Below are positions 54,744-56,865 of a stretch of DNA of 64,000 nt, piece after piece; position 1 is the first letter of the stretch, and the number at the start of each line of letters is the position of its first letter. The position numbers were made by a program, and so were the translations under genes. Under the pieces are notes generated by a model that saw only the letters and a program-made list of their open reading frames with translations, made no database searches and was not told the DNA's origin. The DNA comes from Desulfuromonadaceae bacterium (GTDB lineage: Bacteria; Desulfobacterota; Desulfuromonadia; Geobacterales; Pseudopelobacteraceae), in NCBI GenBank assembly GCA_028681335.1, contig JAQUIT010000001.1, forward strand, positions 186,001 through 250,000, read 5' to 3'.

Positions 54744-55325
54744 TCAGACAGGTCTTCCGGGCCGGACAACAATATTTTTAACCCTCACCTGTGCATAAGG
54801 ACCTGCCAGTTCACGATACAGCAGCGCCAGAAAACGTACTGTCACCAGACGGTGAAGGGCCGCCTGGGTAACGCGGTAGAGCCATAAGCGAAACGGTGAC
54901 GGAGAGTTGCTGCCAAGAATGAGGGGACAAAAATCACTGAGCTGGAGCGAAGCCCGTACGCTCTCGAGCGTGGGTTCGATGCCGAAGCGGAGTTCGCCTC
55001 TGTCGCATTGGCGCGGCTGCACAAGAACACCGCCGCAGATGCGCAGTGTTACAAAGTTATCTGAGTGTTCAGCCGGCAGGAACTTGATCAGACTCAGTTG
55101 TGTACCAACCAGGCGGAACTCAATGCCTCCCTCAAGTGTTAGCGGGCGAATAAGGCCCAGCGTGAATTTTTTCACATAGCACAGGTAGCGGCAGAGCAGA
55201 TCATCTGTGGACAGTTGAGCGGTAAGTGCAACAGGCATGTCGGCCCATTGAACAGAAAAGATCGAAGCATCTTCAGTCATGACCTGCTGACAGACTACTT
55301 CGAGGAATGGTGTGATTGATGGCAT
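54744..55325 (-). CDS. Hypothetical protein, 193 aa
   Basis: Intact ORF filling the gap between lon and the macA upstream region; no family recognised. Confidence 0.55.
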   Translation of the reverse strand: MPSITPFLEVVCQQVMTEDASIFSVQWADMPVALTAQLSTDDLLCRYLCYVKKFTLGLIRPLTLEGGIEFRLVGTQLSLIKFLPAEHSDNFVTLRICGGVLVQPRQCDRGELRFGIEPTLESVRASLQLSDFCPLILGSNSPSPFRLWLYRVTQAALHRLVTVRFLALLYRELAGPYAQVRVKNIVVRPGRPV

Positions 55326-55386
55326 AAAGGTATCTTGCCATCGGCATCAAATTTTGCAATCTAAATTATGGGTGTTGAAATTCAGC

Positions 55387-55414
55387 TTGACAAGATTCTA
55401 AATTGTATTAAGAT
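55387..55414 (+). promoter_or_regulatory. Sigma70-type promoter of a candidate small RNA
   Basis: TTGACA (55387-55392), 16-nt spacer, TAAGAT (55409-55414). Confidence 0.6.
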
Positions 55415-55420
55415 AAAAAT

Positions 55421-55597
55421 CATCCTGTTAGGAATTAAATATTCTATCGAAAGGAGACCCTGCCCATGTGGACTGCAAGATTTAAAATTCGTCCGGTTTC
55501 CCACTGCAAAGAGGGGTGCCCTAGTTAGCCCGCAGCCTACAGGCTGCGGGCGTTCCAAAAAAGCCCTACTGTCGAAAGACAGGGGGCTTTTTTTTTG
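55421..55597 (+). ncRNA. Candidate small structured RNA (about 175 nt) ending in an intrinsic terminator
   Basis: Own promoter; internal hairpin GCCCGCAGCC-TACA-GGCTGCGGGC (55528-55551); terminator at 55557-55597; separate macA promoter downstream. Confidence 0.5.
55557..55597 (+). terminator. Intrinsic terminator
   Basis: AAAAAAGCCCTACTGTCGAAAGACAGGGGGCTTTTTTTTT: stem plus long U tract. Confidence 0.85.
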
Positions 55598-55623
55598 TTG
55601 TGACAACCGTTATCTGCTATCAT
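55595..55623 (+). promoter_or_regulatory. Candidate macA promoter
   Basis: TTGTTG (55595-55600), 17-nt spacer, TATCAT (55618-55623). Confidence 0.4.
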
Positions 55624-55668
55624 GGCTGTCATACGTATCTATATCAGGCGGCAAAGAGTGAGCTTCGC

Positions 55669-56865
55669 ATGAAAAAAATTCTCATAATTTTGGCAGTTTT
55701 TCTTCCTGTTTGTGCCATTGCCGGCTATTTTTTTTATAAACGTGCACCGGAGGTCAGCTATAAGACAGCCGTTATCGAGCGCGGCACAATTGTCTCGACG
55801 GTGGCTGCTACCGGCAACCTTTCGGCCGTGACTACCGTTCAGGTAGGCACCCAGGTGTCCGGCACGATCCAGAAGCTTTACGTGGATTTTAACTCGAAGG
55901 TTAAAAAGGGACAGCCAATTGCCGAAATTGATCCCTCACTGTTCAACGCTTCGGTTGCGCAGGCCCAGGGGAACTACCTCAGCGCCGAGGCGAACCTCCA
56001 AAAAGCCAAGGTCACCCTGACGGATGCTGTGAGGACCTTCACCCGCTATAAAAAAATGCTGGCAGACGGGATAATATCACAGGGGGATTTCGACGCAACA
56101 GAGACCGTTGTGCAATCGTCAGCTGCTTCTGTTAAGGCGGCTGAAGGAGCTCTGGCCCAGAGCCGTGGTTCTTTGATGCAAGCCAAAACCAACCTGCGCT
56201 ACTCCGTCATCCGCTCGCCGGTCGATGGGGTTGTTATCTCCCGTGCTATCGATGTCGGTCAGACCGTGGCTGCCTCATTTTCCACCCCGACTCTTTTCAC
56301 CATCGCTCAGGATTTGACTAAAATGCAGATTGAAGTCAGCGCTGATGAGGCCGATATCAGTCGTATCCAGCTTGACCAAAAAGCCAGTTTTACCGTTGAT
56401 TCCTATCCGGAGCAGACCTTTCACGGCAAAGTTATCCAGATTCGCAGTGCACCGGTTATCAACCAGAATGTGGTCACCTATGTTGTCGTTGTTACTGTTA
56501 ATAACGGCGATCTGAAGCTGAAACCGGGTATGACCGCCAATGTTTCGATTGAAGTGGCTAAAAAGGATAATGTGCTCAAGTTGCCTCCGGTCGCTCTCCG
56601 TTTCAAGCCGAAAACAAAGGGAGACGAGACAAAAGCCAAAGGAGGTAAATCTGGTGGACGAAAGGGGGGGGGCGGTCTGCAGGTCTATACCCTCAGAGAG
56701 GGTAAGCCTGTTGCCGTGGCGGTGAAGACAGGCATTGCCAACAACAACAGCATCGAGCTGGTTGAGAGCACACTCAAGGAAGGTGACGAAGTCATCGTCG
56801 AGCAGGTCGGCGGTGATAGCGGCAAGAAGAAGAGCGCCGCTTCGTCAATGGGGCGTCCCTTTTAA
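55669..56865 (+). CDS. macA: MacA-like membrane fusion protein
   Basis: VAATGNLSAVTTVQVGTQVSGTIQKLYVDFNSKVKKGQPIAEIDPSLF; next to a MacB-type ATPase and permease. Start reassigned from 55600. Confidence 0.9.
   Translation: MKKILIILAVFLPVCAIAGYFFYKRAPEVSYKTAVIERGTIVSTVAATGNLSAVTTVQVGTQVSGTIQKLYVDFNSKVKKGQPIAEIDPSLFNASVAQAQGNYLSAEANLQKAKVTLTDAVRTFTRYKKMLADGIISQGDFDATETVVQSSAASVKAAEGALAQSRGSLMQAKTNLRYSVIRSPVDGVVISRAIDVGQTVAASFSTPTLFTIAQDLTKMQIEVSADEADISRIQLDQKASFTVDSYPEQTFHGKVIQIRSAPVINQNVVTYVVVVTVNNGDLKLKPGMTANVSIEVAKKDNVLKLPPVALRFKPKTKGDETKAKGGKSGGRKGGGGLQVYTLREGKPVAVAVKTGIANNNSIELVESTLKEGDEVIVEQVGGDSGKKKSAASSMGRPF

Follow-up and report, generated by a model that had tools for sequence, protein, structure and literature searches.

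A predicted microprotein gene family of Geobacterales and other anaerobes with RNA structures at a fixed distance from codon 18

The window analysed here is a stretch of 64,000 nucleotides from a Desulfuromonadaceae bacterium, and the locus described below lies on its plus strand. It starts with a predicted sigma-70 promoter, TTGACA-N16-TAAGAT (55387-55414, 10/12 in the promoter scan), from which a transcript of about 175 nt would cover 55421-55597, the 5' end being deduced from the -10 box. Within this transcript the Shine-Dalgarno sequence AAAGGAG (55450-55456), which is near-invariant among relatives, is found 9 nt ahead of the ATG of an open reading frame (ORF) of 20 codons ending with TAG (55466-55528, stop codon 55526-55528). 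The ORF encodes the peptide MWTARFKIRPVSHCKEGCPS. Its last conserved codon is codon 18, TGC, at 55517-55519. Then follow a spacer of 8 nt (55520-55527), where the length is fixed and the sequence and the stop position are not, and a perfect 10-bp hairpin, GCCCGCAGCC-TACA-GGCTGCGGGC (55528-55551, z -4.8). The unit is closed by an intrinsic terminator consisting of an A-tract, a hairpin and a run of nine Ts (55557-55597, z -5.6). Compared with shuffled sequences, the folding of the entire transcript gives a z of -5.2. An uncharacterised ORF of 193 amino acids lies between lon and the element on the minus strand (54744-55325); it is kept in 23 loci of the genus and has no match in Pfam. The next gene downstream encodes a macA-like periplasmic adaptor (HlyD_D23; 55669-56865, plus strand), which is listed as a neighbour without implying that it belongs to the unit. 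The preliminary description of this DNA had noted a separate promoter-like sequence for macA. At the scan thresholds no plus-strand promoter is found, and what can be seen by eye is a -10-like hexamer, TATCAT, at 55618.

The same arrangement is found in most of the Geobacterales elements. A promoter of at least 10/12 is located 37-98 nt 5' of the ATG in 95 of 122 elements, while about three would be expected from shuffled sequences, and a terminator is found 62-79 nt past codon 18 in 120 of 122 elements, in any context (none in shuffled sequences). The downstream neighbours, including those of a handful of loci from other phyla, form 41 clusters, 23 of them co-directional and 18 convergent. 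Given their own promoter and terminator and this division among the neighbours, the Geobacterales copies are, judged by sequence, free-standing transcription units, and the locus in the window is predicted to be a monocistronic small gene with a sigma-70 promoter, a strong ribosome site, an ORF, a hairpin and an intrinsic terminator. The promoter, the terminator with nine Ts and the discrete, independent unit of about 175 nt noted in the preliminary description are thus all borne out, the last of these by the promoter and terminator statistics for the elements as a whole.

The transcript was originally taken to be a non-coding small RNA. What is found instead is a conserved ORF with a ribosome site and a third-position substitution pattern. 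A DNA search in related genomes gave matches in 57 of 58. Beyond the family of the window, what still aligns is often no more than positions 70-153 of the query, corresponding to the ribosome site and the ORF. The same peptide is present in every homologue whose sequence was read. The codons change and the residues R, P, V, K, E, G and C are retained, the substitutions being found in third codon positions. For residues 9-18 the entropies of the three codon positions are 0.095, 0.095 and 0.825 bits in 123 distinct Geobacterales elements, and 0.33, 0.26 and 1.48 bits in 67 elements from other groups. M1, R9, P10, V11, C14, K15, E16, G17 and C18 are invariant in the broad alignment, with P10 and E16 being variable in Desulfotomaculia. 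The core of the peptide is R-P-V-x-x-C-K-E-G-C, and the cysteine-pair motif C14-K-x-G-C18 is found in all aligned members. The length varies from 18 to 25 residues across the family, and the sequence contains no signal peptide. Conservation of the amino acids reaches Cys18, encoded by TGC in 123 of 123 Geobacterales elements, and then ends abruptly. Judged from these comparisons the transcript is an mRNA encoding a conserved microprotein of 20 amino acids, and not a non-coding RNA. The two similar boxes ACTGCAAGA and ACTGCAAAGA that had been pointed out earlier do exist, but they are codons 3-5 (T-A-R) and 13-15 (H-C-K) of the overlooked ORF.

The hairpin starts exactly 8 nt from the Cys18 codon in all 123 Geobacterales elements. 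Their stop codon is found 3, 7, 8 or 13 codons past Cys18, and the position of the hairpin is unchanged, showing that its place is set by codon 18 rather than by the stop. In a covariation test using 28 diverse sequences, 224 of 224 hairpin cells were paired (100%) and 32 cells contained double changes, compared to 6.8 ± 2.5 in shuffles, while slid controls of the hairpin were 34-49% paired. The hairpin covaries within the genus of the window as well, less strongly. Both the perfect 10-bp hairpin of the preliminary description and the compensatory changes in relatives that it had suggested as a check are thereby found. The nested complementarities that it placed around the boxes (ACCC/GGGT, GTG/CAC and GAC/GTC) fared differently; they pair in 74.9% of the cells, the figure for shuffles being 74.5%, and covariation is not clearly in excess, so that they seem to arise from the coding sequence as a side effect. 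At 55508-55535 of the window, codons 16-18 are able to base-pair with the start of the hairpin (GGGUUG/UAGCCC), which excludes formation of the hairpin. This pairing is possible in many Geobacterales relatives, that is, in part of the set, and it may be a candidate switch.

Firmicutes and Omnitrophota have, in place of the hairpin, the sequence GUCC[C/U]GGGCA-N-GAC-NNNAAAC-UGCCC. This reads as a compact H-type pseudoknot, in which a putative stem S1 (GUC/GAC) and stem S2 (GGGCA/UGCCC) are joined by loops of 2 nt (L1), 1 nt (L2) and 7 nt (L3, A-rich). The assignment is backed by compensatory changes, with double changes at three pairs of S2 and one pair of S1, and in a larger set six Omnitrophota and one Firmicute carry CUC/GAG as S1. 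S1 likewise starts 8 nt after codon 18. The central finding is that two different RNA structures are placed at one distance from one codon. A long-range pairing between the flank of the ribosome site and the 3' flank was suspected by eye in Firmicutes, and RNAalifold gave none. Two kinds of recoding were considered and rejected. No slippery heptamer was seen by eye at codon 18, and the terminator in Geobacterales leaves no room for an extended product of programmed frameshifting. A selenoprotein with a SECIS element would need a UGA specifically conserved ahead of the structure; a stop follows Cys18 directly in some members only, and it may be TGA, TAA or TAG.

The peptide profile matches 108 of 112 genomes from the order of the window (E<=1.4e-10), the genomes without a strong match being G007, G188, G194 and G180, where the gene may be lost or may fall in an assembly gap, and 6 of 88 genomes in the rest of the class. 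The matches are bimodal, either strong or none. One other genome with the peptide was found in the phylum of the window outside its class. In the class of Desulfofundulus (Desulfotomaculia) 58 of 113 genomes match (E<=0.001), as do 31 of 300 genomes drawn from its phylum (E<=1e-5), and the peptide is present in 78 of 237 Omnitrophota genomes; all these figures are from samples of genome collections consisting of drafts, partly metagenomic, and the counts ignore phylogeny. Among the carriers are Geobacter, Geomonas, Geotalea, Trichlorobacter, Oryzomonas, Citrifermentans, Desulfofundulus and Desulfovirgula. The genome of the window has one copy, and some genomes have two or more. The few carriers among Patescibacteria could be explained by contamination or transfer. 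Two Patescibacteria contigs encode a Geobacterales-type peptide, MWTARFRIRPVSHCKEGC (L171:174-233 on the plus strand, and L213 on the minus strand). Both copies precede similar pseudouridine-synthase-like genes and have the hairpin at about the same place, and they are apparent cases of horizontal transfer. No matches to the peptide were found in the phages and plasmids searched. Matches within long open frames were considered as fusions to a larger protein and rejected, as one frame holds a run of N and the others look like chance.

The genes surrounding the element differ between the lineages. A macA-like gene follows the element in 59 of 135 loci, distributed over several families of the order. 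The element had been proposed as a possible dedicated leader of macAB, but the division between co-directional and convergent clusters does not support this. Apart from the macA-like adaptor, no enrichment of stress genes is visible among the Geobacterales neighbours. In several genera and many genomes (L025, L026, L032, L157 and others) a DUF362/4Fe-4S ferredoxin-like gene is found at a near-constant distance, about 102-118 nt, upstream of the peptide type YMLRPVTRCKEGC. In Omnitrophota a gene encoding an Rrf2 regulator (PF02082) is located directly downstream in 30 of 56 loci; in 22 of these 30 it starts 43-135 nt past codon 18, and no terminator is evident ahead of rrf2. A fixed co-directional target gene, which a leader or attenuator should have, is thus present in part of the Omnitrophota and absent in Geobacterales. 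Other neighbours in Omnitrophota are genes for 8-oxoguanine glycosylase (seven), ArsB/CitMHS (six), ArsP_1 (four), YHS (three) and desulfoferrodoxin (two), as well as flavodiiron protein, ferritin, rubredoxin and SO_0444 efflux. In Desulfotomaculia metal P-type ATPases (five), CsoR-type repressors (three), Fe-SOD (three) and hemerythrin (two) are found, and the gene order CsoR-peptide-CopA occurs. These counts are not phylogenetically independent, and the link to Rrf2 may stem from few ancestral placements. A conserved uncharacterised protein of about 103 amino acids, MxFEVYRPRSSRENVVALTKHHIRLG..., is encoded after the element in many Desulfotomaculia (loci L248, L250, L251, L252, L262, L263, L264, L266 and L290), often beside genes for small acid-soluble spore proteins.

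The interpretation that we somewhat favour is that the elements constitute a new family of microproteins or leader peptides that pause the ribosome at Cys18 and have a role in thiol, metal or oxygen stress in anaerobes, acting either in cis or in trans. At a distance of 8 nt the structure would lie against the mRNA entry site when the ribosome decodes codon 18, as is the case for recoding and pausing signals, and from this spacing we infer a pause in translation. The ribosome decoding codon 18 would then meet the structure and pause, and residues 9-17 would at this stage be situated in the exit tunnel, as in arrest and leader peptides. The abrupt end of conservation at Cys18 fits such a pause. 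The stress signal would act on the CxxxC pair as a reactive site; the pair is also compatible with zinc, Fe-S or disulfide chemistry. The suggested role in thiol, metal or oxygen stress is drawn from the neighbouring genes, namely Rrf2, CsoR/CopA, the efflux of Cu/Zn and arsenite, and oxygen defence (superoxide dismutase, superoxide reductase, flavodiiron protein, rubrerythrin-like proteins and 8-oxoguanine glycosylase). In Omnitrophota the element would serve as a leader that controls rrf2 in cis, while the free-standing gene of Geobacterales, including that in the window, would exert its effect in trans or solely by way of the peptide it encodes. The action of the free-standing copy is the least certain point, and a peptide working in trans would be the simplest answer; known arrest peptides control a gene in cis, and a free-standing one would be unusual. 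The structure 8 nt downstream could alternatively serve mRNA stability or termination. A wider and more speculative proposal, put forward tentatively, is that the family represents a new class of sensors in at least three phyla of anaerobes, where the nascent R-x-V-x-x-C-K-x-G-C of an 18-codon peptide together with a structure at +8 would act as a switch that pauses the ribosome in response to thiol, metal or oxygen stress, working in cis at rrf2 in Omnitrophota and in trans in Geobacterales.

Several other explanations might account for parts of these observations. The element could be a cis-acting attenuator, in the window of macAB, where stalling on the ORF would refold the RNA and allow the polymerase to read through the terminator. 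The frequent macA-like gene, the rrf2 genes following Omnitrophota elements without an evident terminator, and the alternative pairing between codons 16-18 and the start of the hairpin in part of the Geobacterales set would all agree with this. The convergent genes downstream in 18 of 41 clusters and the retention of the terminator whatever the context do not, and any conserved antiterminator pairing would be hypothetical, making attenuation a fairly unlikely explanation. It appears improbable that the peptide is a cytoplasmic microprotein, metallothionein-like or a chaperone, that simply binds a soft metal such as Cu(I), the RNA spacing being incidental. The CxxxC pair together with a histidine, the CsoR-peptide-CopA order in Desulfotomaculia and the SO_0444 and ArsP-type efflux genes in Omnitrophota point in this direction, but metal binding leaves two unrelated structures exactly 8 nt past codon 18 unexplained, and R9 and V11 are constrained as strongly as the cysteines.

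That the RNA itself is the active product, a non-coding or dual-function small RNA which base-pairs through its hairpin and poly-U terminator and for which the ORF is secondary, is quite improbable. Its own promoter, the terminator with a long run of T, the covarying hairpin and the size are all as in small RNAs. However, between families the conserved nucleotides are confined to the ORF, the ribosome site and the arms of the hairpin and terminator, which leaves no conserved seed, and both the third-position substitutions and the lack of covariation in the earlier nested structures argue against it. PqqA is the precursor of PQQ, and a similar precursor of a modified product or cofactor, for which the RNA structure merely tunes synthesis, is conceivable but very unlikely. 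The peptide has a size like that of PqqA and a conserved core, whose end would be marked by the stop of conservation at Cys18, and the gene is free-standing and sometimes duplicated. No maturase, RRE/PqqD or transporter, however, recurs adjacent to it in the scanned neighbourhoods, and radical SAM matches amount to two among 104 Omnitrophota neighbours.

The favoured reading, a peptide that pauses the ribosome at Cys18, concerns a family carried by almost all of the Geobacterales genomes examined as well as by many Desulfotomaculia and Omnitrophota. It is absent from Pfam, NCBIfam and Rfam, and its short length of 18-25 codons is the probable reason. The fixed 8 nt from the last conserved codon to two unrelated structures gives a strong and testable prediction of programmed ribosome pausing. 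If correct, a component would be added to the stress response of anaerobes, in organisms used for the study of metal respiration. The locus further illustrates that what reads as a small RNA can turn out to be a microprotein gene. In Rfam release 15 no matches were obtained in the window at the gathering threshold, nor at the element in 20 loci from several lineages, and a permissive scan of the region gave weak, chance-level matches only; the statement in the preliminary description that the RNA matches no known class, for which it had proposed such a scan, still stands. The peptide has no match in Pfam, NCBIfam or PDB. In the literature, CKEGC and HCKGGC were not found in a relevant sense, and no Geobacter element of this kind was found described.

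SgrS/SgrT is a dual-function small RNA, and resembles the element in that the transcript is small and free-standing, ends at a terminator of its own and contains an ORF. It differs in that no conserved pairing region is found here beyond the ORF. The last ten or so residues before the presumed pause are conserved here as in the leader and arrest peptides TnaC, SecM and those of the RAPP class; their sequences are unrelated to the present peptide, and the known ones act in cis on a fixed downstream gene (PMC10987492, PMC12992588). Closer parallels are found among copper-responsive ORFs. CruR (DUF2946) of Bordetella is a copper-responsive upstream ORF of about 145 residues with a signal peptide, a CXXC motif and RAPP (PMC9426467). 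As in the present family, a small translated ORF with a cysteine pair and a nascent chain regulates expression, and the context is related to metals in some of the relatives studied here. The present peptides, in contrast, have 18-25 residues, no signal peptide, CxxxC and no RAPP, and those of Geobacterales have no gene in cis. CutF of Rhodobacter capsulatus is exported and has a proline-rich, stalling-like end, and a stem-loop hides the ribosome site of the next gene (PMC9973294). Like the present family it combines a CxxxC motif with a small ORF whose translation is coupled to an mRNA stem-loop further downstream. In the present elements, by contrast, the position of the structure is tied to codon 18, and those of Geobacterales have a terminator after it. 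CruR and CutF are precedents for copper sensing by a small ORF that encodes a cysteine pair, at the stage when it is being translated (PMC9426467, PMC9973294). The features of the DUF2946 and CutF types that were looked for in the peptide, an export signal and a C-terminal RAPP or proline-rich motif, are not present, and since the logic is shared and the defining sequence features are absent, the family is not filed with CruR and CutF. Overall, the family is new, and so is the way in which it arranges a type of device that is already known.
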